NCBI GenBank assembly: GCA_033439255.1 | Contig: CM065890.1 | Span: forward strand, 1,860,001-1,924,000 | Source: Hericium rajendrae | Taxonomy: Eukaryota > Basidiomycota > Agaricomycetes > Russulales > Hericiaceae | DNA length: 64,000 bases | Direction: 5' to 3' | Shown: piece after piece, positions 27,819 to 58,232 of the stretch | How positions within the stretch are numbered: position 1 is the stretch's first letter | How the letters are laid out: every line of letters starts with the position of its first letter | Made by a program: the position numbers and the translations under genes | Notes under the pieces: model-generated | The model's database searches: none | What the model saw: the letters and a program-made list of their open reading frames with translations, nothing else | Told to the model about the DNA's origin: nothing

Positions 27819-29891
27819 CTATGCTTCGTTCAAGCCGTTCCGCACAAGCGCCTCGGCGGCCTTGCTCCTCAATTTGAATGTGCAGTCGAAGTAGGGTGGA
27901 CGACTGTGAAAAGCACCCTCTATCAGCCATCCACTGATCCAACAGGACAGGACAAAACGGAACGTACCTGGACATCGAATTCGAGTATTCGATGGAGGCC
28001 GGGTCCAGCGGCTTGCCCTCCTTATCGACGGGATTCGCGATATCGAAAGTTGCCAAGATGGAAGCGGACGTGATCCACAGCGTGTCGCGTCCCATGGCTA
28101 ACCGCCCCTCGTCAGAGACACAACTTCGTCAAAAAAGCACACTCACTTCGTCCCGGACAGATCCTCCGTCCAAAGCCAAAAGCGATCTCGCTATCCGGAA
28201 TATCATTCCGCTTCCCGTCCTTCGTCAAAAACCGCTCAGGCCGGAACTCGTCCACGTCCTCGCCGTACACCGCCCGGTCGTGCAAGATGGCCCACACGTT
28301 TGACGAGATGAACGTGCCCTTCGGCACGAGGTAGCCCTCGTAGATGTCGTCCTTGTTTGAGGAGTGGAAGAGGCCAAGCGGCGCACCGGGGTGCCAGCGC
28401 AAAACCTCGTTAAGAAGCGCGTCCATGTAGGGGATGTTGCCGAAGTCGGTGAAGTCAGGGAGGCGCTCGCCATGTAGGGCCTCGTCGATCGCGGCCTGCG
28501 CGCGCTTCTGCACGTCGGGGTTCAGTGCCATAGCGAGAGTGAATGTGCATAGGGTGCCGACGGTCTGCAGAAGATGGAGATGTCAGCTATGTGCTTAAGC
28601 AAGGTCTGCAAGAAGTAACTTACAGCACCAGCACCGCCCAAATAAGCCTCCGCAAGGATGTTCTGCATGAACTCCTTAGATTCGTTGGTGCTCTCATCGT
28701 CGTCCTGGTGAGCAGCGAGGAAGTGCGAGGCTATGGAGGGAGGAGCAGTGCCATTCGCCTGAAAATGCATTAGAATTTCGCAAACTAAAGCCTAAATAAT
28801 CAATTCTACGAACAAGCTGCTCCTTGACGTGGTTGAACGGCACCGAGCGCGCGGTTACGCCAAGTCCTTTCCACTCGTCCGCTTGTTTTTTGAATCCTCC
28901 ACCAGGGAACCACCTTGGAATCCACCTCATGGGCGGGATGAGATCGACTATACGTCTATCAGCAAAGAAATGCATGATTTGAGAAATCTGACTGACCAAG
29001 GAATCCACCGCCAGCGACGACGGCGAGGGCACCGACAAGGCCCTCGGCGAGCTTGATGAAGTAGTCGTCTTCCGACTTTGGTGTGATGCCGTACGTCGCA
29101 GATAAGATCATGTCACCAGTCGTCCTGCATCGCATCATGTGTTAAATAGATCTCGACAAAAAAACGCTTATGACGAACAGCTGCATGTCCCGCGCGTAAT
29201 TCACGTTGCTGTTCAAGAGACGCTGGAGCAGACGCCGCGCCGCGTTCTGCGCGTGCATCCGCACAGCTGTTGACCCTTCAAACTCGCGGTGGAATAGCCT
29301 ACGGTGCTCTGTCGATCCAAAGATTATTATGTGACATAAGTGGTTTAACGGGAAGGGCTTACGCTTCCATGCGTCACCGTACTGCATAAGTCCAAACACC
29401 CACGACATTCCCATCAAATCGCTCAGCATGATGGATTGTGGCCTATCAACGTCTCATTTGAACGCGATTAACCACTGAGAACATGCAGGAGCCGTACCTG
29501 TCGGAATAGATAGTAGAGCGTTTGACCAGCAAGTCTGTTGCGGCCTTCATTGTGTTGAGGACGAGAATGCCGTTTCCGCCGGGGAGACGCAGGTACATCA
29601 AGTCCGAATCTACAAACTGCTAAGCTCCCAGGACACATTGTCCAAAACCACGGCACGCACTATTATCACGACACCATTTATCGTATATCTTCCATGGATG
29701 CGTCGTTGGAATACTCAGCATGTTGCCGAGAATCGGGAGGGGCGCGGGCCCGGGGGCGTCCTGGCCTTCTTGCCTCCGGAGAAGAGCCATGCAAACGCGA
29801 TGACGGCGCCGACGCCGATAAGACTGAGGTCAACGACGCCCAGCTGCGACGCGCGGTCATTCCAAAGGGTCAGAAGTTGAGAGGTGTCCAT
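27819..29891 (-). CDS. eriA: Cytochrome P450, eriA-like (diterpene oxidation)
   Basis: ER-anchored monooxygenase, first gene of the cluster. The start at 29891 (MDTSQLLTLWNDRASQLGVV) is followed by a membrane anchor (SLIGVGAVIAFAWLFSG) and a Pro-rich hinge (PPGPAPLPILGNML). Later motifs are HRRLFHREFEG (C-helix), EVLRW (ExxR), YEGYLVPKGT, FRPERFL and heme loop FGFGRRICPGR. The last exon restores the P450 C-terminus and ends NGLNEA at the TAG 27819-27821. The I-helix reads AYLGGAGA, an intron, then TVGTL: the Asp and first Thr of the usual GADTT are Gly and Ala. About ten exons. The symbol is assigned because family and gene order match eriA of the erinacine cluster; the reaction catalysed is not deducible here. 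Confidence 0.85.
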
Positions 29892-30888
29892 GATAGAGTT
29901 GTACCTGGGAGGATTCAGAGACGGAGCGCGACTTACTTGCGCACCTTGATCAAGGAAATCGGGTCGTGGCTATGCATGGTTTAGTATCGGGCGGGACCCA
30001 TGCATCGGTCGCGTATGCATCCGTTTGGAGCGGAGGCACGGTCTACTTGCGAGCAGGAGCGAGACGACGAGGCGGGCCGCGGTAGTCGGAGGCGACTGAT
30101 AGTGCCAGCTGCAGGCAGACTCCGATCTTCTCGTCGGGTCCGGGAGCATTACAAACTGCAAGAATGAAGTTATGATACTGGTCTAGGAGATCTGCGAGAA
30201 ATCACAGGACAACGAACACGTACATCAAACCCGGTCGATCGCGGAGGTTAACGGGCGTCGCGGTGTAATGGCAGTATTTACAATACCAGGGAACTTACCG
30301 GACAGACGCGTAGCGGATTCTGCTGGTGTTCTGTCTGGATTTCTCTGGCGCTCTTCGAGTCTCCATGAGGCTGGTGTTCGTCCATGCCAGTGTTCTGACT
30401 GTCCATTCACTTCAAAGTTCAAGGTCCAAAGGCTGCGCTCGAAATTCGAGCGCTTCAGGTCGGCATGCGTGGGAAACACGATCATCCACGACAATGAATG
30501 AAGTCAACAAATTTGAATCCAACGAATTCTTTGCTCTGTCCATTGAAAAGCGCCATGCTACGCTTATTCCGTCAAGGGTTTGTGACTCGTAATTTTGGGT
30601 TATTCTACGCTATGGGAGGTCCACTGGAATGAACATCAGCCCGATGCGTTGAGCAAGCGCTCGGCATACAGATTCGTCACTTGAGCGGCATCTGTGCTTC
30701 CCATGGACTTCGGACGTTATGAACCAAGGTGCGTCTTATAAATTGTACTCAGAACCACCAAGGTGCGCGTCTCTATCAATCTCCAATTCGACCTTTTCCC
30801 CGTTAACACCTTCTTCAAGGCAAGGCCAAGCGCTGATCAGAATCTAGCCTCCCCACGCCGTACCGGTCCCTGAATCCCTACTATCACC
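29892..30888. promoter_or_regulatory. Divergent intergenic region eriA/eriB
   Basis: The two genes read away from each other with about 1 kb between start codons, so they may share upstream control. A TATA box on the eriB side is listed separately. No binding-site motif could be assigned with confidence. Confidence 0.5.
30737..30742 (+). promoter_or_regulatory. TATA box upstream of eriB-like SDR
   Basis: TATAAA about 147 bases before the ATG at 30889; the spacing implies a leader of roughly 110 bases. Confidence 0.4.
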
Positions 30889-32196
30889 ATGGGCAACGCG
30901 CTTGCTGTCTACAAAGATACGTTTCCCCCGAGCCCGACATATAGCGTCGACGACGTGCCCGACCTCACTGGGAAGGTCATCATCGTTACTGGAGGTAACA
31001 CGGGTCTGGGAAAGGAGACGATCAAGGTATGAAGTCCGCCAGTTTGCGATCCGTAAACAAGATCCATGGTTGTGCAGGTGCTCCTCCAACACAATGCCAC
31101 TGTATATCTCGCCGCGCGCAGTCCGAGCAAGGCCAAGGCGGCAATTGACGAGCTCCGGGATGTGACCGGGAAGGAGGCACTCTTCCTCCAACTTGACCTC
31201 TCCGACTTGAATCCATCAAAGAGTCTGCGAGACATTTCCTTGAGTGAGTACTCGTTTGCGCGGGCAAACTCTTTCCCACAACTCCTTCCGATATTAGAAA
31301 AGAGAAGAAACTGGATGTTCTCCTCAACAACGCGTGCGTATCTCCACATCTTTGACGCAATGAAAACTGAGACTCCATCAGAGGTGTTATGATGAGTCCA
31401 ATCGAGCAGCTCACAAAAGATGGTGCGCGAGTGCTGTCTCTTTGTGGTGATTGAGCTTGTCTGACATCGAACCATAGGTTACGACCTGCAATTTGGCACC
31501 AATGTTCTTGGTAAGGAAATGAAGGTCGCGTAATTATCCTAACTCTCCTGCTCAGGTCATTTCTACTTCACAAAGCTCCTCCTCCTCTCCTTCTGTCTAC
31601 CGCAAAAACAACAGGTGAAGCACGCATCGTGACGCTGTCGTCCGGGGCCGGACTTATGGTCGACGAGATCGACTTCAACACCCTCAAAGACAGTCCCGCG
31701 CGCAAAAAGCTCGGAACGACGAAGCTGTATATGCAGAGCAAGCTCGGCAACATGGTCTTCTCGCTGGAGCTGGCGCGCCGATATGCCGACCAGGGCATCA
31801 TATCCACGTCGATTAATCCTGGAACGCTCAAGTCGGACTTAGCACGCTATGTCGACAGTCTGATATACAAACTGATATTGGTATGTGTATAAGGGAAGAA
31901 AACTTGCCATTGTTGTTGCTTATCTTGGTACAGAAAATTATCAGTTATCCGGTGCCAATGGGCACACTTATCGTCGCTGTACGCCGCGACGCATCCGGAT
32001 GGGAAGAGCCTCAATGGAAAGGTAAGAATCCTTCAAACTGCTTTCCTACAGCGTATGCTCACGATCACCGGCAGTATCTGAAGCCTTGGGCACGGGAAGG
32101 CGAGCTCAGCAAGACCGCGACTGATCCAGAGCTCGGAAGGAGCTCTGGACGTGGATGGAGGAGCAGGTTGCGCCATTCGAGTCGAACGCGTCGTGA
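30889..32196 (+). CDS. eriB: Short-chain dehydrogenase/reductase, eriB-like
   Basis: NAD(P)-dependent alcohol/ketone oxidoreductase of the retinol-dehydrogenase-like SDR type. Starts [20 protein letters not shown]. The Rossmann motif TGGNTGLG follows KVIIV, then [31 protein letters not shown] (read across an intron) and catalytic Ser in IVTLSSGAG. The catalytic YMQSK is followed by [18 protein letters not shown] and the [11 protein letters not shown] motif. About seven exons. Near 32137 the family frame ([19 protein letters not shown], stop at 32194-32196) is reached only if one base is added to GGAAGG. As written, the frame continues to 32305 with an unrelated Arg-rich tail. In the erinacine pathway two SDRs act on hydroxylated cyathanes; which step this one does cannot be read from the sequence. 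Confidence 0.85.
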
Positions 32197-32962: not shown

Positions 32963-35105
32963 ATGGTGCTCGCAGACTTCATCTCGATACCGACTGTTAG
33001 TATTGCCTGCCTCGCAGTGCTCGGCATCGCGTATCATCGTCACCAGTCCAACAAGAACACAAGACGTCCGCCTGGCCCGAAGGGATATCCTTTCATCGGG
33101 AACTTGCTGGAGCTCGTCAGCGCCGAACGCCCTCACCTTCTCTTCCCACTGTGGATTAAGCAATATGGTCAGTTTCGCTTCCATTGTCCGTGTTGACTGA
33201 CGCTAAAATCTCACTTCGCCAGGCGACATCGTCCGCTTCACGGTTTTTGGTGTTGAAAACATCCTCATCAGCAAGTTCTCCACCGCCATCGAACTGCTAG
33301 AGAAGCGTGGGGCTATCTACTCGGACAGACCTCACATGGTTCTGGAAAACGAGATGTAAGCGACGACGTTCATGGTTCGCACCTCGTATAACGACTTCCA
33401 CGTGTCTTTAGCCTTGGATGGGACGCCGCGATGCCGACCATGCGGTATGGCGCACAATTCCGGAAGCACAGAAAGCTTTCAAACGCGCTGCTGAACCCCA
33501 ACGCTGCGCGGGGGTACATCGCGATCCACGAAGAAGTCTCCTTACGCTTACTCTCTGCTCTCGCGTCGCAACCGGACCAGTTCTACCACCATATTCTCAT
33601 GTGCGCATATCTCAGTTTTATGTTATTGATCCGCCTCATTCTTGATTCGCATTGTAGTTACGCGACGTCGACCATTTTCCGGATTTTATGACATTGATAT
33701 AACCGATGATAAGCACGATCTTGTCCGGTTGGGTAAGTAGATCAGTCTTTCCTAGAGCGCACTTGCTAAGCCTTGCACCTCAGCGAATGGTGCTGTTAGA
33801 AAATCCGCCGAGGCATACCAGGCGTCTGGTGCGCTGGTAGACGTGTTCCCGTCATTGAAGTAAGCAACATCCGTATTCAAATCCCTATGGTGCTCACCTC
33901 TTCCTCGTAGATGGCTTTACAACTCGTATCCCACAACCGCTCCTTTTTCAGGGTACAGGAAGGTCATTGAAGACATCAAAGGAGAGGTCGTGCAAGCAAA
34001 CAATATCCCTTACGAGATGGCCAAGGAGAAAATGGTAAGCGCTCGGATAATAATTCATATGGATAATGATCTGACGTGGCGAAGAGGGATGGAAGTGCAA
34101 CCCGATCGCTGGTCAGCGATGCTATTACCGGTTTGGGTGGCCTTGACGCTATCTCCCCGGCGGATGAGCATGACATCCGCGGTCTCGCTGGCATTCTCTA
34201 CGGTGGTTGTTACATCTTTACATATTTTCTTATTCAGTGCTCTATCTAATCGTCCCTCGTTCTAGCCGGACAGGAGACTGTCAGTATAACGCAGTAGTCA
34301 TGTCTATTGACCATAACTGACTCACGATCTACAGACGATGGTGACTATAACCAACACAATCCTGGCCATGATCCACCACCCCGAAGTTCAGCGCAAGGCT
34401 CAAGCCGAGATCGACGCCGTCGTGCCTCTTGATCGCCTCCCCACTCTTGATGACAGGGCTAACATCCCATATCTCGAGGCCTTCGTCAAGGAAGCATACC
34501 GGTACGCTGTATTGCCTCCCTGCAATCAACACACCAAGACTGACACGGACGCGAAGCTGGGCCTGCCCCCTCATTATCGCTATCCCGCACACTGTCATCC
34601 AAGATGACGTTTACGAAGGCTACTTCATTCCCAAGGGCACCAGCATCATCGCCAGTATCTAGTACGCCCCCTCTCCTCCTCCGTGCTTCCCCAGTCAGCT
34701 GACCCCGCCTCCGACAGCGACATGCTCAATCAGTGCCCGAACGCCGCCGCATTCAACCCGGACCGCTTCATCGACGGCACCGACCTCGGCGATGTGCCCC
34801 CCGACCCGCGCGACGTCGTTTTCGGCTTCGGGCGCCGGCGCTGCCCCGGGCTGCACGTCGCGGACAACTCGGTGTGGGCCGCGCTCGCGCAGCTGCTCGC
34901 GTCGTTCGAGTTCCTCCCCGAGCTCGTCGACGGCAAGGAGGTGCTCCCGCCGCTCAAGTGGGGCAAGGAGATGGCCAGGTGCGTGTGCTCCGGATCCGTG
35001 GCGCGGGTGTGGGCAGTGGGCTGATACCTGGTTGATAGGCACCCGCAGCCATACCGCTGCCGCATTGTGCCGAGGGAGAACCGCAAACATTGTTATGCGG
35101 CTTAA
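32963..35105 (+). CDS. eriC: Cytochrome P450, eriC-like
   Basis: Start MVLADFISIPTVSIACLAVL gives the membrane anchor, then RRPPGPKGYPFIGNLLEL. Further motifs are QFRKHRKLSNALLNP (C-helix), the I-helix AGQETT formed across an intron near 34270-34335 (acid-Thr pair present), EAYRW (ExxR), YEGYFIPKGT, FNPDRFI and heme loop FGFGRRRCPGL. The last exon ends RENRKHCYAA at TAA 35103-35105. About ten exons. Around 33683-33690 the frame ATSTIFRI runs into a stop unless one T of TTTT is removed, after which YDIDITDDKHDLVRL continues in frame; this is probably a sequence error. Its position between an SDR and the ABC transporter matches eriC of the erinacine cluster. Confidence 0.84.
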
Positions 35106-35952: not shown

Positions 35953-38900
35953 TTACTTCTGCTTCTTCACGCGGCTGCCCTTGGGCACGCGCGCGAGCCA
36001 GTAGAAGAACACGGCCATACCGATGTTGAACAGGATGAATACCCACAGGAAGCCGAAGTTCCGCCACCGGTGCGAGTACGCGGAGTGGATCCCGGTCAGG
36101 AAGCTGTTCGTCGTCGTCTGCTCGCAGAACTGGCAGTCCGCCGTTGCGTTCGGGTTCGCGAGGAAGCCATCGTTGACGGACATGTACTGCTGCAGGTATT
36201 GCCCGCACGTCTCGCCGCTCGGCGGCTCGAAATGCCGGACCTCGATGTCGGAACAGTAGGCGGGCGCGTTGGCGACGCCGACGGAGACCATGGCTTCGAC
36301 CAGGTACGTGAACGGCGAGAGGCGGTACATGAAAATCTGGAAAGGAATTAAGCCATTGAAGCTAAGAAGGGAAGGAAGGGACGTACCCAGAAGCGGGGGA
36401 AGGCGTTGGGGCCGCTAGGCCCGGCGAGCACACCACAGAACAGGAACGTCAAACTGAACAGCAAGCTCGCAATGTTTCCGCCGGTGACATCCGAGTCAAC
36501 ACCAGCAATAAGCATGTGTGCGAACGTGGATGTGAACAGCATGAATTGCCAAATCTATCAGCGCAAGTGGTCAGCGTCAAGTTCGTTGTGCTGCAATCTA
36601 GCCGGACACGTACCAGGAGGAACATAAGGCCACCGCGCTCCGTGACCGCGTGCGTCACCTCCGCATTCCGGTACATGCCAACGGGGTAGTACCAGCAGAA
36701 GAAGAGCACGACACCAGCCAAAGTGTTCCACGGAAGCCTAAACAGGAAACATCGGTAAATGCACGAATGATGACAGGGAACTGTACTCACTCTCCAAGCA
36801 CATTGGACAACATGAAGACGACCCAGGAGTACGCCCTGCTTGGACGCTCACGGACTTCGTAGAGCGAGCGCTGCGTAACGAAGTGCGGCATGATCTGGTT
36901 GACGAGATTGCCGAAGACAGTCAGGACCCATGAACACGGAGTACATCTGGTTCTGAAGGCCTTGGATCGTGTTCTGCGCATTGAAGAACGAGAAACCGAT
37001 GAGGAGGTTGCTACCGGCGACGAGAAAGATCTTGCTGTACTGTATACCGCAATGCATCAGACCGACCGCAACAGAATGAGAGACTGCTTTGACTTACGAT
37101 GTACGAGGGTGTGCGGTAGAGCTGCTGGTAGAAACGGAATGTGACGTGGAAGAGCTGGACGTGGAACGGCGCAGCGTAGACGCGGAGCGCATCGGTACTC
37201 TCTTGTGAAATCGGCTTCGGATTCTCCCTCATCTGGCGGAGCTCTTCCTTGACGGCGCGGTACGCTTCGCTTCCACGCCAGGCCTCGTAGTAGTCCCGCT
37301 TGGCCACCGCACCAGGTGCAGCACCGATGACAGAAAGCATCCCTGGAACATCCATCAGCATCCAGGCATAATCATTGTTAGATGAAACACTCACATTCCG
37401 CAGGATTCGCAGAGTGGGGGCACGGGTCCGCACCCTGGCCCTCGAAGTAGTCGATGATCGTCCGGGAGTTCTCGCCAATGTCGCCGAAGTACACTGTCTG
37501 GCCACCGCGCTGGAGCAGCAGCAGCCGGTCGAAGGATTGGAAGAGCATGGCGCTGGGCTGATGGATCGTGCACAGAATGGCTTGGCCGTTGTTCGCGAGC
37601 TTGCGGAGGAGCGTGCAGATCGACCAGGCGGTCTGACTGTCCAGACCCGACGTCGGCTCGTCCAGGAAGAGGAGCAGCTGCGGCTTGGCGACGAGTTCAA
37701 CACCGATAGTCAGACGTTTGCGCTGTTCGACGTTGAGACCTTCACCAGGCACACCGACGATGGCGTCCGCGTATTTCTTTAATAGTCATCAGCAAGAGAG
37801 CTACCACCAGGAAGCGAAAAAACATACCTGCATTTCCAGCAGATGGATGACTTCCTCAACGTATGCGGCTTTTTCGGCGTCCGGCACGGTGTGAGGCTGG
37901 CGCAAACGAGCGCTGAACAGCATTGCCTCACGGACAGTTGACGTCTGCAGGTGCAAGTCCTGCTGCTGCACGTAACCAGTGTTGCGCTGGAAGGAGCTGT
38001 CACGATCGTGGCCGTCAACCTGCATCTTGCCGTCAACAACACCCATTGTCACACGGTTCGCAAGCGTATCCAAGAGCGTAGTCTGTAGAATTTGTCTCAG
38101 TACTCGTAATTAGAAAAAGAGAGGAAGACTACCTTTCCAGCACCGGATGCACCCATGAGCGCGGTGAGAGTTCCAGGGCGGACCCATCCATCAACGTGAT
38201 CCAGGATACGGCGAGGCTGGCCTTTGATCTGCAGACGCGCATCAGGGGTGGTGACAGGCTAGGGACAGACCACGGCATACCTTGATATCATAGATAACGT
38301 CTTCCCAATGGAACGTCGCGACCTGCCTCTGGATCCCAGCAATGTTCCCATCCTTGTCGACCGGCTCGTCCTGCGTCCGCGTGCCCGTGCTGCCCGTCCC
38401 GGCCTCTTCGTCCTTCGACGCGCCCTCCTTCTTGAGGGGAACACGCCTGCGGCGGAACACGAGCACTTCGCCCTTGCTCTTGCTCGCGGCGATGAACTCC
38501 GTCGCAAAGAGGTACGTGCACGCGAAGAACGCGATGAAGCCGAACAGGATGCCCAGGTTGCGCCACTTGTGCTGTGGGAAGTACTCATAGGCGGTCGCGA
38601 TATACGCCGCGCCCTCGACGACGTCCGAGCCGAACACCGCGCCTGCGGACGCGCACACGCGCGAGGTTGCGGGGACGTCGGTGTATCCGGGCCCGGTGGG
38701 GATGAACGAGCCGCAGGCGTATTCGCGCCCGTCGAACTCGTTGACCATGATGGACTCGAAGGCGTAGCCGATCGGGTTGATGTAGTTGATCCAGCGCGAC
38801 CAGCCGAGCATGTCGCGCGTCGGGATCGTGAAGCCAGTGAAGATGACAAGGGCAAGTAGGATGACCGAGGACGGCGCCATGGCTTGCGAGATCGTCTTGG

Positions 38901-41101
38901 AAGTCGCACCGATCGTACGGAAGATCATGCTCATGACAAGGATACACCTGAGAATCATGATATTAGTAGATGGCCATCGAAACGATGATGGGTCTTACAT
39001 CAGAGAGAACAAGTAGAACGTGAAGAATGCTCCAGGAGTCCGACGGAGGTTCGTCATGAAGTAAAGCACCAAGTTGAATGCAAAGGACGCGATGACTTTT
39101 CCGGGTAGATCACATAGCACCGATGCTATAGCATCGGCATACGGATGATACAGGGCCATGCGTTTATGCTTCTCGACAATCGGACGTTGCTCGTAGATCT
39201 GCAGAATTTCCAGGGACGACGCGAAAGCGTTCATAAGAATAGCGAAGAAAAGGAGTGCACCGCGACTGTAAAAGGAGAGCGTGTTCTGCGGCAGGTTGTA
39301 GAAGATACTCGAGATGATGAGCGCCAGGATGAAGTTGCCGATGACCGAAGTGAGGAAGTTGCTCGTGTCCGCCATGAATCGCTGCCACGCGCGCTTGAGG
39401 CACAGGCGGATCTGCATCGGCGTCGAAAGCGTGTACGGCGACTGCGAGCCCTTCGCCTGAATGAGCTTGCGCGCCTTCTTGAACTTCTCGAGGTGCTCGC
39501 CGTCCTCGGGAAACTCGCCGTTGAAGCGCTCGATCTCCTGGAGCAGCTCCTGGTGGTCGCGGCTGTTGCGCCACGCGGCGGCGAACTCGTCGGCTGTGCG
39601 TGGGACGCGGCCTTCGAAACCGGGACGAGGGAGGCACTCGCCTGGGTTAGTGAGCGACGTGAGGAAGTCGGCAGTCGTCTGACGCGGCGGGCACTCGAAG
39701 CCCATGTCGATGAAGAACTGCTTCGCCTTGTCGGCGCGGCCAAAGTAGATCTGCTGGCCTTCGTAGAGAACAACGACCTTGTCGAACAGCTGCGACAAAT
39801 CTGTCAGCCTTCGAGTACGGAAATAAGGCTCGATATCCGACTTACATCGTAAATCGCCTGAGACGCCTGGTAGATAGCAACGACGGCGGTGGCGCCAGCG
39901 TACTTGCTAGACAGTCGAAGCGACTTGACGAACTCTAATGCCGTGGCACTGTCCAGACCACGCGTGCTGTTGTCCCAGCACTGCAGAGGACTGCCGCTGA
40001 GGGCCACTTCGGCAATGGACACACGCTTGCGCTCTCCACCAGAGACACCACGGACGAAGTCATTGCCGACCTTCGTGTTGACAGTGTGGGTCAGGCCGAA
40101 GATGGACATTACAACATCCTTCATGTGCTCTGCCCACTGGCTGCGAGAAACACCGGGCAGACGTGTGCGAGGCGTGCGGGCCTCTGCGGCAAAACGCAAT
40201 GTTTGGCCGACAGTCTAAGATGCAGGTGAACTTCTGCTGAGACTTTTGCATGAAAGGTACCGTACCATGTTAGGAAAGTGGACATCGTTCTCAGCGTTGT
40301 AGATAACTTCGCCACGGAATTGCTTATGCATCCGCTTGAAAGAGATACCTGAAGGACACCTCAGCCTGATGTGTCAAAAAAGAGAAAGGCGCAAACCCTC
40401 ACCCTGGTAATTGATGTGGGAATTATCAGTGATCCAAAAACCGTGGGTCTCTCCGGCGATGGTCTTGAGGAGAGTCGTGCATCCCGACCCAGGACGGCCA
40501 AGGACGACAAGCATCTCAGACTCGCGAATCACGCTGCCAATTAATGAGCAAAACGCCAAATAAATCAGAAAGCCAACAAAACTCACCCTTCGAAGTTTCT
40601 CAAGATGTCGATCCTCTGACCTTTCCTGCCGAGAATATCACGCGCAAGACCAGGAATGTCGAGGAAATAGTTCCCAACCGTCTTCTGATGATCGGTGGGC
40701 CTACCATAACCGTAGACACTGAGGTTCGAGAAGCTGACGGCGGCGGTATGGTGAGGGTAGCCCTCGGGGTCGCTCGACTGAAGCTGGAGAATGGCCTTCG
40801 TCCATCGCTCAGGTTCGAACTTGCCCGACAACGGGTCCATGCGCGGGTCGTCCGTGCCCAAGAACGGGTTGGTGCCGTCCGGCTTCTCCGGACTGTAGAC
40901 AGAGCTGCGAGAGGCGTTGGTCATAGTGCGCGCGAGGGCGGCGACCTCGGTATCGGCCGTCGAGGGACTGGGCGGCAGAGCGCCGCCATAGGTGACCTTC
41001 TCGTTCTCAGCCATGGCGGAGAAGGAATGGCGGGCGTTGTGGTGGGAGGAAGAGAGAATGGAGGAAAGGGCGCTTGAGACATCGTGCTTTTGTGAGGCCA
41101 T
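35953..41101 (-). CDS. eriD: PDR-type ABC transporter (ABCG full-length), eriD-like
   Basis: Plasma-membrane multidrug exporter with (NBD-TMD)x2 order. The N-terminus ([20 protein letters not shown]) has ABC-transporter-N segments. NBD1: Walker [13 protein letters not shown], signature [10 protein letters not shown] and degenerate Walker B ([11 protein letters not shown]), as is usual for fungal PDR proteins. Six-helix domain 1 ends near 38480. NBD2: Walker A GASGAGKTTLLD, signature [12 protein letters not shown] and Walker [16 protein letters not shown]. Domain 2 includes [20 protein letters not shown], the large loop with paired Cys (CSDIEV, CGQYL, CQFCEQ) and a final helix before KGSRVKKQK. 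More than ten exons, around 1,450 aa. Near 36927-36929 the frame needs one base less in a CCC run to join NQMYSVFM to [10 protein letters not shown]. It probably exports or detoxifies the cluster product. Confidence 0.9.
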
Positions 41102-42292: not shown

Positions 42293-43580
42293 ATGTCTGC
42301 ACCCATCAACGGTACCGTCGAGAAGTCTTACGTTCCCGGCGAAGAGCTTTGGTGTCAAGAAGACGAGACCGTACGTCTTTTATTTGTGAGCATTGGCACG
42401 TACTGACGTCCTTTCTTACACAGGCCATCACCGAGCCTTACACCTATGTCAACTCCATGCCCGGAAAGGATGTCCGTGGCCGCTTCATTGAAGCTGCTAA
42501 CCACTGGTTGCACGTCGAGCCAGAGCCGCTCGCTGTCATCTGCAAAATCGTCGCAATGCTGCACAACGCGAGTTTGGTGTACGTACCATCTAATTTGTTT
42601 AAAGTCGCTTTGTCACCAACGTCGCATCTGTAGAATCGACGACATTGAGGACAACTCCCAGCTGCGCCGCGGTCAGCCCGTTGCGCACAAGATCTACGGT
42701 CTCGCGCAGGCGATCAACAGCGCCAACTACGTGTATTTCCTCGCCTTGAAGGAGGCGGATCAGCTCAAGCCGTACCAGCGCGAGGGCTACAACTCGCACG
42801 AGATTATCCTCGGTGCGTGTACTTCTGTCGGTGACTTCGCTCCTCTGGCTTATTTTATTCTCTCTTTTCAGACGAGCTTGTTAACCTTCACCGCGGCCAG
42901 GGTCTCGAGCTCGTATGGCGAGACTCGCTGCGCTGCCCAACAGAGGAGCAGTACATCGACATGGTCAACAAGAGTGGGTCTTACTTCACAGATCGTCTGC
43001 GTCGATCACTGACCGGCTCCACAGAAACGGGCGGCCTTTTCCGCCTTGCGATCAAGCTTCTGACGGCGTGCTCATCAGAGCCATCAACCATGTAAGCGTC
43101 TTTCCTGCGTGTGCCGCCCGCCCGCCGCTCACCCGCGTGCACAGCGACTACGTCCCCCTCTTCAACCTCTTCGGCGTGTTCTTCCAGATCCGCGACGATC
43201 TTATGAACCTCGACGACAACGAGTACGAGAAGAACAAGGGCTTCGCGGAGGACCTCACCGAGGGCAAGTTCTCGTTCCCCGTCATCCACGGCATCACCGC
43301 GCAGAAGGACAACAGCGTCCTCATCAGTGCGTTTTGTTTTCCCACCCCTTGCCCTGCGCCCGTTATTAACGCGCCCCCCGCAGACGTGCTGCAGAAGCGC
43401 CCGACGACACCGCCGCTCAAGCTGCACGCGATCCACCACCTCCGGAATAACACTGGCTCGTTCAAGTACACCGAGACGATCCTCAATTCACTCGAGACGC
43501 GGCTGCGCGGCGAGATCGATGCGCTCGGCGGCAACCCCGGGCTGCTCAAGCTCGTGGACCTGCTCTCAGTGCGCAAGTGA
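42293..43580 (+). CDS. eriE: Geranylgeranyl diphosphate synthase, eriE-like
   Basis: Trans-prenyltransferase that condenses isopentenyl diphosphate with allylic diphosphates to the C20 precursor GGPP. Starts [20 protein letters not shown], then [18 protein letters not shown]. The first Asp-rich motif is [17 protein letters not shown], built across an intron. Middle part: [18 protein letters not shown], then [17 protein letters not shown] and [17 protein letters not shown]. The second Asp-rich motif is [14 protein letters not shown], followed by [17 protein letters not shown]. It ends [12 protein letters not shown]. About seven exons. Aromatic/bulky residues before the first motif fit a C20 product, but chain length is inferred. 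It supplies substrate to the UbiA-type cyclase encoded downstream and matches eriE in order. Confidence 0.93.
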
Positions 43581-45486: not shown

Positions 45487-46417
45487 TCAGAGAAGCCCGT
45501 GACTGTCCAGCGAACAAAGCACTAGGATGAAACAGAAAATGTACGTGTAGAACTGACAGGGAATTAGACTCAGGACCGGTGAAACACCAACAAAAGCAAT
45601 GCCAAGATAGACCCACCATGTACGTCTTGTGGTCGTAACGCTGGCCGCCCTGGCGCAGGACGCGGTATCCCAGGATGGCGTGAAGTGCACCGAGCGTAAT
45701 GGAGGCAAGTCGGAAGATGCCCCCGAGGGAGAGCACCCAGCACGCCGTGGGAAGAGCGAGGAACGTGATAATGAGCCGACTGCCCATGTCCCCAAAGACA
45801 AGCGGGAGCGTCTTGCGCCCGACCGCCGCGTCGCCCTCTATGTCCCGTAGGTCCTGGATGTGCATGGTGAAGGCGGCACAGATGGCCAAGGCATACACCC
45901 GCGCGTCTGACGTCGGCGTCGCGGGGGCGATCGCCTTCCACGAGACCCCGAGCATCGCCCAGCCCTCCATGGCCATTCCAATGCAGTTTTTGCCGAACCA
46001 ATGGTTCCCATATGACGTTCGACACAAGAAGGCCGTCGTCGCAATCCAGCTGAGCGTCTGTGGGAGGAATGACGGCTCATAGAGAGCGATGCTGACGAAG
46101 GCCGAGATTGCTGCGACCCAGCGGCGTTGCGCCCCCTGGAGGGTGACCTTGCCCGAAGGAATCGGCCGGTCGGGCTTGTTGATCTTGTCTTCGTCGATAC
46201 CGGTGATTTGGTTCGAGAGGTTGAAGAAGTAGAGGTACAGCGTCAACCAGCAGACGAGGAGGAGATAGCGGGCGACGAGTGTCGTGGGCGGGACTTCACT
46301 GGCAGCTATCGCGCCGATGGCGAATATCGAGCCAGGAATTATGGTCGCCGACCAATCTCGCCGGGAGAAACTGAAAAAGATGTCGAATTCGTGGGCAACT
46401 CGCGCAAAGACGGGCAT
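45487..46417 (-). CDS. eriF: UbiA-type prenyltransferase/terpene-cyclase paralogue 1, eriF-like, short C-terminus
   Basis: Polytopic membrane protein, two exons (46417-45617 and 45552-45487), 288 aa. The ATG at 46417 (MPVFARVAHEFDIFFSF) aligns with the start of its neighbour. First Asp-rich site: NQITGIDEDKINKPDRP; second: DLRDIEGDAAVGRKTLP; both keep the Mg-binding acidic residues. It is closely similar to the gene at 47305-48284 over its whole length until the last exon. That exon ends LDSHGLL, about 19 residues short of the neighbour; sequence homologous to the missing tail is still visible after the stop but is out of frame. Third-position GC is visibly lower than in the neighbour. In the erinacine literature EriG, not EriF, is the cyathane cyclase; the role of this copy is unknown. 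Confidence 0.82.
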
Positions 46418-47304: not shown

Positions 47305-48284
47305 CTAGAGCTCCTTGAGGCTGACGCCCGTGGTCGCGAGCAGAGCGCGCAAGCTCTCGGCGTTAATCTTGAGCCCGAGGCCGTCCAGCGCGCAGAACGC
47401 GAGGATGAGGCAGAAGATGTACGTGTAGAACTGCCACGAAGACAACATCAGCACCTCGCGGTATCACATACAGCACAACAGCGACTCACCATGTACGTCT
47501 TGTGGTCGTAGCGCGGGCCGCCCTGGCGCAGGACGCGGTACCCGAGGATGGTGTGCAGCGCGCCGAGCGTGACGGGCGCGAGCTGGAAGATGCCCGCGAG
47601 GGAGAGCACCCAGCACGCGGCGGGCAGCGCGAAGAACGTGATGATCAGGCGGCTGCCCATGTCGCCGAACACGAGCGGGAGCGTCTTGCGCCCGACGGCC
47701 TTGTCGCCCTCCACGTCGCGCAGGTCCTGGATGTGCGTGATGAGCCCCGCCCACACGCTCACCGCGTACACCCACGCGTCGCTCGTCGGCGTCGCCGGCG
47801 CGATCGCCTTCCACGAGGCGCTGAGCAGCGCCCATGTCCCCGTGGTCATCGCGACGCAGTTCTTCCCGAACCAGTGGTCCCCGTACGACGTGAGGCAGAG
47901 GAAGGCGACGGTCGCGATCCAGCAGAGGGTTTCGGGGAGGAAGTCGGGCTGGTAGAGGGCGATGCCGAGGAAGGTGGAGAAGGCGGCGATCCAGCGGCGC
48001 TGTGCGCCCTGGAGGGTGACCTTGCCCGAGGGGATAGGCCGGTCGGGCTTGTTAATCTTGTCCTCGTCAACACCTGTGATCTGATTCGAGAGGTTGAAGA
48101 AGTAGATGTAGGGCGTGAGCCAGGTGACGAGGAAGAGGTAGTTCTTAACGAGCGTTGCGGGCGGGAGATCGCGCATCGCGCCGACGGCGAAGATGGAGCC
48201 GGGGATGATGGTCGTCGACCAGTCTCTCCATGAGAAACCGAAGAAGATGTCGAGCTCGCGGGCGATGGGCGCGAAGACAGACAT
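47305..48284 (-). CDS. eriG: UbiA-type diterpene cyclase (cyathane synthase candidate), eriG-like
   Basis: Two exons (48284-47490 and 47430-47305), 306 aa, with about eight to nine membrane helices. Asp-rich sites NQITGVDEDKINKPDRP and DLRDVEGDKAVGRKTLP bind the diphosphate through Mg. UbiA proteins usually transfer prenyl groups to aromatic acceptors, but EriG of the erinacine pathway, a UbiA-family member, cyclises GGPP to the 5-6-7 tricyclic cyathadiene. Adjacent GGPP synthase, P450s and glycosyltransferase, and the absence of any aromatic-acceptor biosynthesis gene or classical terpene synthase, support cyclase activity here. The C-terminus continues GLKINAESLRALLATTG and ends LKEL. GC-rich codon use. 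A TATA-like site lies about 50 bases upstream. Confidence 0.88.
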
Positions 48285-50660: not shown

Positions 50661-50800
50661 AACGCAGCAGAGAAGAGCTCAATTGAGAAGTGAACCCAAG
50701 ACATACGCTTCAACGCAGCAGAAAGGGCTCGACCGGGAATTGAACCCGGGACATCAACGCAACAAGAAAAAAGGGCTCAATCGGGAATTGAACCCGAGAC
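50661..50800 (-). repeat. Three tandem tRNA-Pro 3'-half copies
   Basis: Units begin at 50661, 50712 and 50756, each opening AACGCA(G/A)CA(G/A) followed by an acceptor/T-arm sequence: GAGCTCAATTGAGAAGTGAA, GGGCTCGACCGGGAATTGAA, then GGGCTCAATCGGGAATTGAA. The last unit is the 3' end of the real tRNA-Pro gene; the other two are increasingly diverged partial copies without an anticodon arm. Confidence 0.8.
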
Positions 50801-50871
50801 CACTCACAAGAACCGGTAATCCGGTGGGAATTCCTCCCGAAGCGAGTATCATACTACTAGACCATTGAGCC
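50773..50871 (-). tRNA. tRNA-Pro: tRNA-Pro (CGG) with intron
   Basis: On the minus strand the acceptor GGCTCAA pairs with TTGAGCC, with discriminator C. D-arm GGTCTAGTAGTATGATA; anticodon stem CTCGC/GTGAG with loop starting TTCGGG (anticodon CGG). An intron of about 26 bases follows the position after the anticodon, and the T-arm is TCGGG-TTCAATT-CCCGA. Intron-containing proline tRNA genes are common in fungi. Confidence 0.87.
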
Positions 50872-51109: not shown

Positions 51110-52076
51110 TTAGATGTTCAGTCTGCCTCCATCAATCATGATCTGAGAGTGCATTCAGAAAGTGATCTAGAGCGTAGAAAAGGAGACGCACCGTCTGGCC
51201 CGTGATGAAGCGCGACTCTTTCGACGCGAGGAAAGACACCAGCGCGGCAATGTCCTCGGGCGTGCCGTTGTCGTTGACCGCGCATGTCGCCTTCTGCGAG
51301 TCGAGAAACTCTTGGCCGTAGTTTCCAATGGCTGTGCGTGCGTGAGCATTGTGAGCAGTAGCGCGCAGGCGGAAGACGTACTAAGAGGAGTCGCGACGAT
51401 TCCCGGCGCGTAGCTGTTCGCAGTGATACCGTTGGGGCCGAGCTCGCGCGCTGAACAAGGTGTCATTAGCTGTGTGCATACTCGTGGAAAACCATGCGTA
51501 CCAGCACTATGCGTGAGCGCACGCATGCCGGCCTTGCTGGCAGCATATGCGCTGCCCATGGGGAGACCAGAAAAGCCACCGAGGGAGCCACCGCCAATGA
51601 GGCGGCCGGGGCGGCCCTGCGCGAGCATCTGCTTGCCGGCGTGCTTGAAGCAAAGGAATACGCCACGGAGGTTAACCGCCTGCGTCGTGTCCCACTGCTC
51701 GACGGAGGTGGCCACAATGGGCGACAGCTCGCAGATGCCGGCGTTGGCAACCATCTATTACGAGGGCGTAAGTGAGAGCTGGAGTATTAATGCAGTGAGA
51801 GAGGGTGCTTACGACGTCGACGCCGCCGAGTTGCTCGACAGTGTCTGCGACAATCTTCTCCACGACGGCCTCCTGCGAGATGTCGCCGGGGACGAGGATC
51901 GCCTTGCGGCCAGTCGCGCGGATTTCTTCAGCGAGCTCAGTGAGCTTCGCGACCTGCGCGTCGTTTGGCAGGTCGTTCACGGCGACGTCGAAGCCGTCGG
52001 CGGCGAGACGGACAACGATGGCGCGTCCGATACCCTGGGCAGCACCGGTGATAATGGCGACTCCTTTGGCGGACAT
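51110..52076 (-). CDS. eriH: Short-chain dehydrogenase/reductase, eriH-like
   Basis: Classical SDR of about 260 aa. Starts MSAKGVAIITGAAQGIGRAI (NAD(P)-binding TGAAQGIG), then NDLPNDAQ, VPGDIS and NAGI. The catalytic Ser is in GGGSLGGFSG, and the Tyr/Lys pair in YAASK; then ELGPNGITANSYAPGIVATP. The last short exon begins after a GT-AG intron at about 51144-51190 and gives the classical end IDGGRLNI with TAA at 51110-51112. About five introns. In type it resembles diacetyl/acetoin-type or other ketone reductases; here it probably oxidises or reduces a cyathane alcohol/ketone. It is divergent from the P450 at 52579 and shares its promoter region. Confidence 0.87.
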
Positions 52077-52578: not shown

Positions 52579-54874
52579 ATGTCGCTGCATCTTTCCCAGG
52601 ACTTTGCGCTCAAGGCTTCTGCAGCCGTCGCCGTGCTGCTTTTAGCGGCATGGGTACGTCTCAGGAGGCGCATCCAGTCGAAGATCAGCAATATCCCGGG
52701 TCCGAAGCCGACTTCGCTTCTTGGTGAGTACAACACAGTTCCTCGAGAAGATGGTCATTGATCGTGTGCCATAGGTAATTATTCGCAGTTGCACAGTGCG
52801 GAGAAGGGATGGGAGTTCTTCGATGAGATCCACGCTAAATGTAAGTGCTTCCAGACCTTGCATGTGCTTTGCGCTGAACGTGCTTCAAGACGGCAATGTG
52901 TGCAGAATATCGACACCAGTTGGCGTGAGTCTCAGCGCGCTTGACCTCCCGGACACATCGACTGATCACATTCCAGTGCAACGACATCATATACCTGGCC
53001 GATCCTCTTGCTCTCAACCATATGAACCGCAGAGTGCGTATTCCTCAATTCCGCATACCACTTGCATGCACTGACTTGTCTTCATTTGCAGGATGAGGCT
53101 AAATTCGACGATCCCCACGAGATTCACATGTGAGTTGTTTACCCTCATTCGCATCGTCTTATGCTGATCTGGCTTTGCGAACAGCATGCTGCAGATGGTC
53201 TTGGGCAACAAAGGACTGGGGGCAACAAGCGGCGCCGAGCACCACCGTCAGCGCAAATACCTCAACCCGGTATTCGGACCCTCGTACCTCCGTCACATGC
53301 CCCCACTCTTCTACGAAGTGACGCACCGCGTACGCCCACACTTCTCCATCTCGCTTTGACAGCAGCTGACCAGCTTCTAGTTCCTCGACGCGATGCGGAT
53401 CCTCTGCGCCGACGGGCAGCGCGAGATCGACATGAGCCACTGGGGCACACGCGTCTCACTCGAGTTCGTCGGCAAGGGCGCGATTGGCTTCGAGCTCGAC
53501 TCGCTCGCGATCGACTCGAAGCCGAACCTCTACGGCGAGGACATGAAGCAGGGATTCGTTGCGCTCTCGACACCCGCCGCGCGTCTCGCAATGAAGTACT
53601 TCCTCCCACGCATCGCGAGTCTCCACACACCCGCGTTCAACCGCTGGCTGCTCAATCTCGTTCCATCGCCGCTTGTCACGATCGTGAAGAACTTCGTGTG
53701 GGAGCTCGATGCGAACTCGCACACGATGTTCCAGCAGAAGAAGGAAGCGCTACTGAAGGGCGGCGATGCACTCACCGAGCAGAGCTCGAAGGGCAAGGAT
53801 CTCATGACTGCACTTAGTTCGTATCTTCGCTCCCTTGTCCACACAATTCGGCTGATGTGCGTTTGCTCCTGCAGTCCGTGAACATGTACTGGTTGACAGG
53901 GCCGACAAGGTCGACGAGGAAGAGGCCACATCGCACGTACGTCTGCTGTTGTCCTTGAGGATACCTCCACCTGACCCACCCGCCAGTTCCGCACGCTCCT
54001 CTTCGCTGCGACCGACACGTCCTCCTCTGCGATTCTGCGTACCATCCAGACCCTCGCAGAGCATCCCGACGTGCAAACGCGCCTCCGCGAGGAGATCGTC
54101 GCAGCAAAGGCAGACGCCGACGGTGACCTCTCGTATGAGAAGCTCCTCGCGCTGCCGCTCCTTGATGCCGTCTACCGCGAGACGCTACGCCTCTACCCGC
54201 CCGCCTCCTATATCGACCGCGTGTACGCCCACCACTTTTCCTTATTCCCCGTCCACAGCCTAACTCATACATCCGCAGCGCGCACGAAGACGTCGTGCTC
54301 CCCTCGCGTTCCCTATCACCGGCGTCGACGGCACGCAGATGTCGGAGCTCGTCGTGCCGAAGGGCACGGTCGTCACGATGTCGATCGTCGGCGTGAACCG
54401 CAGCACCGCGATCTGGGGCCCTGACGCGCTCGTGTGGAACCCTGACCGTTGGCTCGCGCCGCTGCCAGAGACGGTCAAGAGTTCGAAGATGCCCGGGATA
54501 ACCTCGTCGATGTGCGTGCTTCGTTCGTTGTGCTGGGGATGTGAGACTGATGGATTGGGTGCAGCATGACCTTCTTGGACGGAAAGCGCCACTGCTTGTG
54601 AGTTCGCGTTCTGTCTTGTGTTCACGGACGTCAATTGACAGCGATGTACAGGGGCTACCGCTACGTGCAAATGGAACTTAGTGCGCCTCGCCTCCTTTCT
54701 CTGCTCTACGCATGCTAACAATGGCCCGCAGAGATCCTGATCAGTGAGATTGTGTGCACCCTCGCGTTCGCGCCGACCGAGAAGCACGCGAAGATCGAGT
54801 GGCCGATGGGCCTCACGCTCTCGCCGTTCGTCGATGGCAAGATGTCAATGCCGCTGAAGGTGTCGCTGGCGTGA
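52579..54874 (+). CDS. eriI: Cytochrome P450, eriI-like
   Basis: Starts MSLHLSQDFALKASAAVAVL (membrane anchor), then NIPGPKPTSLLG. Motifs: HHRQRKYLNPVFGPSYLRHM (C-helix), the I-helix FAATDTSSSAI with the acid-Thr pair, ETLRLYPP (ExxR), FPITGVDG, WNPDRWL and heme loop FLDGKRHCLG, which keeps Cys but has Leu-Asp where FGxG is common. About 12 exons; first intron boundaries give LLGNYSQLHSAEKGWEFF. At 54300-54303 the run CCCC is one base short of the frame joining AHEDVVLP to LAFPITGVDG. As written the frame leaves the P450 sequence here, most likely a sequence error. Its sequence type differs from the other two P450s in the cluster. Ends MPLKVSLA at TGA 54872-54874. Confidence 0.84.
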
Positions 54875-56435
54875 GCTGGCGTGAGCTGGTCCGCATCAGC
54901 GGGGGTGTGCGTTGGTAGAATGAATTCATGGACCCGTCAGATAGATGCTACGCTCGTTTCCTGTACTGCAATTTGTCCACTATACTCTTGTCATCATTTT
55001 CTTGTCATGTGTTGTCACTTATATATTATTCTGGGAATGCTAGCAATATCCTCACTCATATGTGTTCCGGCGTAACGAAGGTACTCAAAGAAACCAAGTG
55101 ATAGGAAGAAAAAAAGCGCCTTGATGATCTGCCAAGTATCGCAGGGCGGCTTTGTACGACAATGGGCTTACGTAGATGCAATTTAGTCGATATGTATCCA
55201 TACCATTCTTGCAACTAACGAAATCTATCTATTATGCAGCATCTTTGTCTGAAGAACGCAGCGCATACCCCCGAGCCGCGGCGATCATTACAAGAGAGGG
55301 CCAAGGCCTACACTCAGTAAAGAACCATTTTGCACGGAGGAACGCTCTGATGTTCTGATATTTCAGTGGAAGAGACGTATCCGGGGAAAGCTTGTATGGC
55401 GTCAAGATGCCCAGTCCGCCTTCCACGGTTGCTGTCGTGTACTTGGACAATTACTTTATATGTTCAAGTTGTCCATATACTGTACAGTAGGTCGAAGCTT
55501 AGATGGCCTACGCCCGGCCATATCCTATCTAGCTTTCACAACACTAGAATCAAAGTCTATAGTTTGAGCAAACAAGGGGCCCCAATAGGTTCTCGCATTC
55601 GCATGCAGCGCGTCTGCACCGTCGCCATCTGGATGGCTTCCAGTCCGTCGACGCATGTGCGACCATGAGGGCGCTCCCGCGGATGATAGATTTCAGCTTC
55701 CGAGCCAAGCGACTGGCGCACTCGATCCGGATCTGCCTCCGAGTGGTCGCGGTCCCGGGCTCTGTGCCTGGCCCGATCTCCTTTGAGCTGTCCACCATGC
55801 GTCCAAGCCATCGATATCACCGAAGCGAGACTTTGTGAAGTCACCAACCGAGGCAGCGCGCAGACGCGTCTACATACCTTCTCCTTCCGGCCAGAGAAGA
55901 TCAAAGGGTCTGGGGCGCCCTGCCGATGATCCCATCAGGTTAATCTGGCCGTCCGACATGACCGTTGATGACATCCATCGTGGAGAGTTACTTCATGAAG
56001 TGCTTGGTGCGCCCTGCATCGTCGCATCTCTGCGCGCGCTGGCTGACTGTTGTTCTCTTAGCTCGGGTCTCTAAGGGATCTTATGGTTTTCAAGTCTGAT
56101 TGAAGATCAAGCACTTATCGACGGCACGGCAAACATTATTTTCACTTGTCATTGTTTTGTTTCATGGAGTTACATGGAATTTATAGCGTAACATCCAGTA
56201 AGCACTGTAAGCATCGTGAACTTTGTAAACGGAGCACTGATCGCCTTTACGCCGACTCGACCATACCTGCCGCACAGCTGACGCCTCGCTTATCCCACTT
56301 CCCAACGACCTGAGTTATCGGACCTGCGCCCTGCGCGGGCGTTCCTCAGTCGGCGGGCACGCTCCCGAATAAAAGCAGCCCAGCCCCGGACTCGGCCCAC
56401 ACGAACCAATCACGCCCGCCGCCCATCCTCCCGCC
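54875..56435. other. Intergenic between eriI and eriJ
   Basis: 1.56 kb. A 10-base direct repeat (GTGAGCTGGC) overlaps and follows the eriI stop. Overlapping short frames at 55550-55904 have no recognisable product. Confidence 0.4.
56368..56375 (+). promoter_or_regulatory. TATA-like site of eriJ
   Basis: AATAAAAG about 60 bases before the ATG at 56436. Confidence 0.4.
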
Positions 56436-58232
56436 ATGTCCACGCAAAGCTACCACATTGTTGCGGTCCCGCCCAACGAGTGGGGCCACATGCGCCCCAT
56501 GATCGCGTTCCTTGCGCGCCTCGTCGCGGTGTCGCTCAGTAGTGTCGATGTTACTGTTACGCTCATCATTGCCGAGTCCGCGGTCGCGAAGGCGCGCACT
56601 GAGCTCTCCATCCAGCTCGCGGGCGAAGGTATCCAGTCTGCGGAGAGCCGATTTGAGTGCGTCGCGTCTGCTGTATCGCTCGGTGCAAGCAGGACTCATC
56701 TTTGGATATGATCAGGGTTGTGCCGACGGCCGTGCACATGTTCTGGCCTGCGGATTCATACCTACCCGCCCTGAAAGCGACCTACGCCGAGGTCATCAAG
56801 ACGAAAGAGCCCGACTTCGCTCTGCTCGAGGTTCGCATCTTTCCTGGTACACCTTGCGATCGTCGGCTGAGAATATAACGACAGTCCATGATCCACCCCT
56901 TCTTCGACGTCGTCCGCTCGTCGGCGACGAAGCCTGTCAAAGTCGGGGCATGGCTCCCCGTCGCGCTGCCGTCCTGGACGAGCATGGCGCCCATCTGTTA
57001 CATCCGCGACGACCCTCAGGCGTACGTGAAGCAGGTCGAGACCACCATGGCGGAGAAGGGCCTCGGATACATGGAGGCTGCGAGCGACGTCAGTGCCCTC
57101 GCCAATTTTCTTTTGGTCGAGCACAACTGACGGTGGACCGCAGGCCTACCTATCACACGTCAACGGCCGCGTGCTCCGCATCCCCGGGTTCCCCGAAATG
57201 ACCGACTACGAGGGCTTCCCGCAGGAGGTACGCCGCCCACAAGCCCGCCGCACCACCACTAACGCGCCCACAGCCCCCCGTCCTCCTCCCCGTCGCGATG
57301 GTCGTCGACTGGGTCTTCGGCATCCGCGACGCCGACATCCTCGTCACGAGCACCGCGCAGGCGCTCGAGCGCCAGGGCCTGCAGGTGTTCAGCACGTGGC
57401 TCAAGGAGCAGCCGAAGCACAGCGACATCCTCGCCGTCGGCCCGCTCACGTCGCAGCGCACGCCCGAGGTCGCGCGCAAGGAGAAGGAGGAGGCGGACGC
57501 GGGTGGCTTCACCGCCTTCCTCGACGCCTGGGCCGCGAAGAAGGGCCCCAAGTCCGTGCTCTACGTGCGCCCCCCTCCCTCCCTCCCTCCCCTTCCCTGG
57601 CGTACAGCTGATGGAGAGACGCGCAGATCTGCTTCGGCTCGGTGCTACTCCCCGCGGAGATCGAGCACCTCTACGCAGTGATGCGCGTGCTCCTCGAGCT
57701 CCAAATCCCCTTCATCATGGTCCTCTCCGACCCCGCGCGCGCCGCGCTCCCGCCCGACCTAGCCACCGCCGTGCGCGACAGCGGCCTCGCGCAGCTCACG
57801 CCCTGGGCGCCGCAGCAGTACATCCTCGCGCACGCGGCCGTCGGGTGGTTCCTCTCGCACTGCGGGATCAACGGCACGCTCGAGAGCCTGTGCCTGCGCG
57901 TGCCGATGGTGTGCTGGCCGCTGTTCGCGGACCAGCCCGTGCTGAGCATCCTCGTCGCGCAGGTGTACGGGTGCGGGTACGAGCTTGGCGAGGTAAGGAA
58001 GGGGTTCGGGCTTAAGTACCGCGCGAGCACGGGCAAGACGCCGGGGGGGACGGTGGAGGATGTGACGCGGGAGGCGAGGGAGGTTTTCAGCAAGGCGTTC
58101 TTCAATAAGGAGGAGCGCGCGAAGGTGGATGCGAATTTGGAGAAGATGGCGACGGAGCTCAATGCGGCTTGGGATCAGGAGGGTGATGCGCGTGCGAGTG
58201 CGCTGGCGCTGCTGGATTTCATTCGCAAATAG
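56436..58232 (+). CDS. eriJ: UDP-glycosyltransferase (GT1), eriJ-like
   Basis: Transfers a sugar from a UDP donor to a terpenoid hydroxyl; in the erinacine pathway EriJ makes cyathane xylosides. Start MSTQSYHIVAVPPNEWGHMR places the family catalytic His in the WGHMRPM motif (residue 18). N-terminal acceptor domain: HPFFDVVRSSATKPVKVGAW, LPSWTSMAP and YLSHVNGRVLRIPGFPEM. C-terminal donor domain: SVLYICFGS across an intron, then the PSPG-like box WAPQQYILAHAAVGWFLSHC, continuing GINGTLESL and PMVCWPLFADQ. It ends LALLDFIRK. About seven exons; the boundary after ESRFEC (near 56660-56690) is uncertain. The box ends with ADQ rather than the xylose- or glucose-diagnostic residues known from plants, so the donor cannot be read directly. 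Last gene of the cluster on this side. Confidence 0.88.

Follow-up and report, generated by a model that had tools for sequence, protein, structure and literature searches.

We analyzed a 64,000-nucleotide (nt) window of contig CM065890.1 (assembly GCA_033439255.1, positions 1,860,001 to 1,924,000; positions below are counted from the first letter of the window) and found in it eleven genes in a row, which very probably make up the erinacine (eri) cluster and belong to a Hericium species or a near relative. At the left end stands a GMC oxidoreductase (probable EriK), at the right end a glycosyltransferase in the EriJ slot. The window is eukaryotic in look, its genes requiring many short introns, and has a GC content of about 54%, a value with no diagnostic weight for the species. 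Gene models were built with a small gene finder followed by hand curation, using GT..AG intron borders and introns of 43-67 nt; the gene finder alone overlooked the short-chain dehydrogenase (SDR) at 30.9-32.2 kb, presumably owing to its frame changes. The eleven spliced models span 23.7-58.2 kb, the family of each is backed by Pfam, and from left to right they are as follows.

23737-26046, minus strand: GMC (FAD) oxidoreductase, probable EriK; 597 amino acids (aa), 11 exons, one GC-AG intron, open model
27819-29891, minus strand: cytochrome P450, EriA slot; pieces 29742-29891 and 27819-29739, Pfam p450 1.1e-54 (main piece)
30889 to about 32200, plus strand: SDR, EriB slot; Pfam adh_short 7.7e-21 (first piece), 3' end approximate
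32963-35105, plus strand: cytochrome P450, EriC slot; Pfam p450 2.1e-42 and 7.5e-12 on two pieces
35953-41101, minus strand: PDR-type full ABC transporter, EriD slot; 1471 aa, 15 exons
42293-43580, plus strand: geranylgeranyl diphosphate (GGPP) synthase, EriE slot; 319 aa, 7 exons, Pfam polyprenyl_synt 1.2e-64
45487-46417, minus strand: UbiA-type cyclase paralogue, EriF slot; 288 aa, Pfam UbiA 4.5e-27
47305-48284, minus strand: predicted UbiA-type diterpene cyclase, EriG slot; 306 aa, Pfam UbiA 3.6e-25
51110-52076, minus strand: SDR, EriH slot; 252 aa, Pfam adh_short_C2 7e-60
52579-54874, plus strand: cytochrome P450, EriI slot; 548 aa, 13 exons, Pfam p450 1.1e-50
56436-58232, plus strand: GT1 UDP-glycosyltransferase, EriJ slot; 506 aa, 6 exons, Pfam UDPGT 8.6e-15

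The spliced models and Pfam bore out the ten genes, families and order which the sequence-only reading had placed at 27819-58232, as well as its two end points: the left one coincides with the first gene's 3' end and the right one with the stop codon of the glycosyltransferase gene. The EriC-slot P450 contained an ExxR motif (EAYR) and the heme motif FGFGRRRCPG, and the EriH-slot SDR contained TGAAQGIG, NAG and YAASK motifs. The EriB-slot SDR carried NNAG and YMQSK motifs, while its later piece fell under the curated Pfam cut-off; a reading of the first of these motifs as NNAC was dropped once proper intron placement gave NNAG. Pfam matches in the EriD slot were to ABC2_membrane (1.1e-76), PDR_CDR (2.3e-35), ABC_tran and ABC_trans_N, and the EriJ-slot protein matched glycosyltransferases of the same type in the PDB with E-values down to 1.9e-26. 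In the EriE slot, PDB entry 6v0k and its variants, named 'Terpene synthase', came first (6e-89), with GGPP synthases from 5e-86. Despite the name of 6v0k, the Pfam family and the motifs DDIED and DDLMN of this protein are, as judged from its sequence, those of chain-building synthases.

The ten families in the order A-B-C-D-E-F-G-H-I-J are those of the eri cluster. We read the locus as this cluster because the families stand in the published order and include a neighbouring pair of UbiA genes and a GT1 gene, unlike the arrangement in Cyathus olla; the same features suggest Hericium or the Hericiaceae as the source. The H. erinaceus cluster comprises eleven genes, namely a GGPP synthase, two UbiA proteins, three P450s, two SDRs, a UDP-glycosyltransferase, an ABC transporter and an FAD oxidase, as reported in PMC5579188, PMC12843870 and PMC11969743. 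Section 9 of PMC5579188 gives Her1A5908 and Her1A5910 as P450s, Her1A5912 as GGPP synthase and Her1A5915 as butanediol dehydrogenase; if Her1A5908 is assigned to slot A, then Her1A5910, Her1A5912 and Her1A5915 occupy C, E and H, respectively (3/3). The likeness to the Hericium order claimed by the sequence-only reading was likewise found in H. coralloides, where Table 6 of PMC11508549 lists ten rows on chromosome 13 (Her011457-Her011467, one identifier being printed twice) in the same order: P450, NADP-binding, P450, ABC, GGPP synthase, cyclase, UbiA, NAD-binding, P450 and UDP-glycosyltransferase. An eri-like cluster is also reported from H. rajendrae, an erinacine maker, with proteins at least 67% identical among three Hericium clusters, and differs as printed in that the GGPP synthase g9677 and a tailoring gene, g1840, lie apart from g9579-g9587 (PMC10608310). 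The Col cluster of Cyathus olla shares a UbiA-type cyclase, a GGPP synthase, three P450s, two SDRs and a transporter (PMC11186289, Table 3); as described there it has another order, one UbiA gene, an extra flavin monooxygenase and no EriJ homologue. Protein lengths at this locus and in Cyathus are close for the cyclase (306 and 304 aa), the GGPP synthase (319 and 315 aa) and the second SDR (252 and 250 aa), while the EriI-slot P450 is longer than its Cyathus counterpart (548 versus 516 aa; PMC11186289). The kind of cluster, its order and its chemistry are thus already known, having been in print since 2017 (PMC5579188), and as a cluster the locus adds another instance of an established route to nerve-growth-factor-inducing diterpenes.

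The GMC gene lies to the left of the edge drawn by the sequence-only reading, which had called the cluster complete. Its product matched GMC_oxred_N (3e-38) and GMC_oxred_C (7.5e-32) on two pieces, and a frame change suspected in this gene was dismissed once the GC-AG intron was recognized. A pyranose dehydrogenase, which we take to be a GMC-family enzyme, would fit the gene at 23.7-26.0 kb. The 11-gene list for H. erinaceus includes a 'pyranose dehydrogenase' (PMC5579188) and EriK is termed an FAD-dependent oxidase (PMC12843870); these two and the GMC gene at 23737-26046 may well be one gene. At the level of family, the GMC gene would supply the eleventh eri gene, and the locus places it beside the A slot. 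Table 6 for H. coralloides begins at the first P450 and so stands outside any comparison of the GMC gene (PMC11508549).

With respect to the intergenic sequence, 56 stop-free stretches of at least 70 aa, some overlapping genes, were listed from four of the ten gaps, including the gap to the left of the first P450; the other six gaps are smaller. Ten gap stretches of 104-175 aa, among the longest, had no Pfam match at E<=0.1. Neither the gene models nor the 20 scanned stop-free stretches yielded a terpene synthase family, in agreement with the earlier statement that a classical terpene synthase is absent, and the same set contained no acetyltransferase or second FAD oxidase family. The claim that no unrelated protein gene interrupts the row held for the scanned stretches, but one tRNA gene was identified by Rfam inside it, between the EriG-slot and EriH-slot genes (50773-50871, minus strand). 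This gene, overlooked by ARAGORN, has by eye a Pro-like anticodon with an insert, and it is adjoined by short tandem copies of what appears to be the tRNA 3' half, reaching to about 50661.

What this analysis itself contributes to the identification is the gene order, the families, the motifs, and the tree position and fold of the cyclase. Several points weigh against it. The eri assignment was made from families and order, not from percent identity to EriA-EriJ, and the cyathane xyloside product is a prediction from the genes. In this assembly the A-, B- and C-slot genes lack a continuous reading frame. The tree of UbiA proteins presented below includes neither a known ubiquinone or heme transferase nor a characterized cyclase. 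Finally, the acetyltransferase EriL and the oxidase EriM, which erinacines Q and A are reported to need (PMC12843870), were not seen among the gene models and the scanned stretches; together with the omission of the GMC gene at 23737-26046, this makes the word complete too strong for the interval first proposed.

Apparent frame changes lacking an intron-sized gap were seen by eye in the three left-hand slots, a difference of this assembly from the H. erinaceus cluster. One lies in slot A near 29740, in a proline-rich hinge, three lie in slot B (near 31585, 31975 and 32128) and one lies in slot C near 33683. No frame change was seen in the D, E, G, H, I, J and GMC genes, the D gene being clear over 4416 nt. 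With five changes over the A-C coding sequence, approximately 4.1 kb if the estimated length of B is used, and none over the approximately 11.1 kb of D-J, the binomial P was 0.0014, a post hoc value from hand counts, which became 0.0066 if the short C-terminus of the EriF-slot protein was counted. This uneven distribution, with three changes in the B slot, would suit an eri-type cluster which, in this strain, is undergoing decay in its left arm (A, B, C), and errors are not found everywhere, as the GMC gene and the flanking tyrosinase, ribophorin II and part of the GH47 gene (these three inspected partially and by eye) showed no frame change. If decay were true, the pathway would stop early, for example with a cyathane hydroxylated at C14, or the corresponding xyloside, as product.

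We consider such decay unlikely. The proteasome gene Rpn3/PSMD3 (10062-12084, minus strand), used as a control for assembly quality, has one apparent frame change near 10980, and human PSMD3 aligns through it with only the X unmatched. Rpn3 is essential in yeast. In our view assembly error is likelier than decay as the source of the changes in A, B and C, because an essential gene carries a like change and the assembly does contain such errors. Catalytic motifs are also present in all three slots. In slot C, two P450s from the PDB align through the X-marked joint; in slot B, the alignment to the SDR 3rd5 crosses the first joint, comes to the second close to its end, and breaks off short of the third. 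The three changes in slot B and the uneven count may nevertheless leave room for local decay.

For an intact eri cluster we read the predicted product as a cyathane xyloside. The polyprenyl synthase in the E slot would provide GGPP, which the intramembrane UbiA-type cyclase at 47305-48284 (G slot) would ionize with the help of Mg bound at its two Asp motifs and convert to cyatha-3,12-diene. The P450s in the I, C and A slots would then hydroxylate C14, C15 and C11, respectively, and the J-slot glycosyltransferase would add xylose to the C14 oxygen. The SDRs and the FAD enzyme presumably adjust oxidation state and the PDR pump in the D slot may export the product. For the E, G, I, C, A and J enzymes, the reactions are those given in the H. 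erinaceus papers and were not read from this DNA, and the same chemistry is presumed for this strain. PMC12843870 reports C14, C15 and C11 as the sites of EriI, EriC and EriA, acetylation by EriL, xylosylation by EriJ and oxidation by EriM, and places EriL outside the cluster. A related UbiA-type diterpene cluster directed to another carbon skeleton, for example of the verrucosane type, is very improbable. The cyclase motifs do leave the product unfixed, and PMC10489798 cites Yang 2017, the paper on this family of cyclases, for the production of neoverrucosan-5beta-ol by engineered E. coli; however, the locus reproduces the eri order including the tandem UbiA pair and GT1, and the two species whose published orders were compared, H. 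erinaceus and H. coralloides, are both reported erinacine makers (PMC5579188, PMC11508549, PMC12251483).

The assignment of a cyclase to this pathway was examined through the motifs of the two UbiA proteins, located at aa 69-77 and 188-196 in the EriF-slot protein and at aa 67-75 and 186-194 in the EriG-slot protein. Both matched motif I of UbiA-type terpene cyclases, defined as NXXX(G/A)XXXD in PMC9835599 (NQITGVDED and NQITGIDED), and both matched motif II, QDXXDXXXD (QDLRDVEGD and QDLRDIEGD). Both depart from the first motif of ubiquinone/ether-lipid type UbiA prenyltransferases, NDXXDXXXD, with Gln and Gly in place of its first two Asp. An AlphaFold model of exon 1 of the G gene (265 of 306 aa; mean pLDDT, the predicted confidence, 80 and lower in the last third) matched UbiA enzymes of the PDB, with 6m31 giving the top E-value and 4tq3 a template modelling score of 0.71, and thus predicts a UbiA fold for the G copy.

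A first scan of genome contigs using the two window proteins returned no relative. A prokaryote genome scan using an alignment of these proteins with two plasmid-borne relatives gave 78 loci, and a tree was made from 80 proteins (two of 82 were dropped as short), with some long branches and a midpoint root for drawing only. The EriF-slot and EriG-slot proteins grouped with 17 bacterial homologues on a branch with 100/100 support, the opposite side of which held 61 archaeal and bacterial proteins with Asp at the fifth motif position; among all compared proteins this Asp was present in 63 of 82. On the cyclase side, 18 of 19 proteins had Gly, Ala or Ser at this position, and the nineteenth (L014), which the pattern search had put with the Asp group, has the motif GQIHSLKED with Ser at the fifth position. 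Of the two outcomes that would have spoken against a cyathane cluster, a grouping of the UbiA pair with ubiquinone or heme transferases was checked in part and was not what we found: NCBIfam scores were far below cut-off, and the tree, in which no fungal ubiquinone or heme transferases were placed, joins both proteins with cyclase-motif homologues.

That the pair are instead ordinary prenyltransferases for ubiquinone, heme O or ether lipids, with the cluster making something else, is scarcely credible, for although NCBIfam and PDB sequence searches match them best to (di)geranylgeranylglyceryl phosphate and chlorophyll synthases and the H. erinaceus pair is annotated as digeranylgeranylglyceryl phosphate synthases (PMC5579188), the NCBIfam scores for geranylgeranylglycerol-phosphate and chlorophyll synthases reach just 40-58 bits against cut-offs of 212-353, Gln and Gly stand where transferases have Asp, and the tree separates the pair from Asp-type homologues. 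In the NCBIfam scan of both proteins no heme-O synthase model was listed, and the 4-hydroxybenzoate octaprenyltransferase model was matched by the G copy only, at 17.6 bits against a cut-off of 364.

In annotated records of bacterial relatives on the cyclase side, a polyprenyl synthetase gene adjoins the UbiA gene in both of two cases (L001 and L002). A motif search of the raw loci placed a polyprenyl synthetase nearby in 5/17 of them (L001, L002, L003, L006, L019) and near one of the 63 Asp-type UbiA proteins (L077). The two annotated pairs, each a cyclase-motif UbiA gene beside a polyprenyl synthetase gene, occupy 4712-6708 of a Streptomyces plasmid (L001) and 2809-4828 of a plasmid labelled Bacillus (L002). 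The UbiA protein of L002 is identical in the tree to that of L019, from Brevibacterium oceani, and for this reason the Bacillus record is suspect and may be mislabelled, contaminated or the result of recent transfer.

The second UbiA cyclase is the main point of interest left in an otherwise known cluster. The two UbiA genes are 77% identical in protein and 77% identical in DNA, with a common intron position. Comparison over 286 codons (NG86) gave a nonsynonymous rate (dN) of 0.139, a synonymous rate (dS) of 0.707 and a dN/dS of 0.20, and this ratio speaks for long purifying selection on the pair. The locus documents an old tandem duplication of a cyclase gene in which both copies have cyclase motifs. 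The C-terminus of the F copy is approximately 20 aa shorter than that of the G copy, and the last 70 or so nt of F lie in another frame. H. erinaceus is reported to make a neoverrucosane (PMC10489798), and PMC12843870, as excerpted, writes 'EriG/F' and gives no separate product for EriF.

The F copy is a candidate for this unexplained neoverrucosane chemistry of Hericium, and the F gene (45487-46417) could conceivably encode a second diterpene cyclase of other specificity which supplies the neoverrucosane skeleton of H. erinaceus. We offer this as a tentative proposal with the balance clearly against it. Retention of both cyclase motifs, the dN/dS and the citation of Yang 2017 for neoverrucosan-5beta-ol in E. 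coli favor it, while the loss of the C-terminal residues counts against it, as does the consideration that the G copy could itself form verrucosane as a side product; the link between the F copy and neoverrucosane chemistry is itself conjectural. If the proposal were true, one tandem pair would feed two skeletons into a single set of tailoring enzymes.

Outside the cluster, the left flank contained the following genes or pieces of genes, which can be used as synteny markers.

1454-2385: tyrosinase, gene or piece
12546-13540: ribophorin II/Swp1, gene or piece
14393-15059: GH47 mannosidase, gene or piece
19898-20290: F-box, gene or piece
22052-22807: Sec20, gene or piece

To the right of the cluster, 61640-62232 and 63196-63837 form a direct duplication approximately 1.6 kb apart, with three blocks that are 78-91% identical, and the duplication covers a RING-finger gene as identified by Pfam on the first copy.

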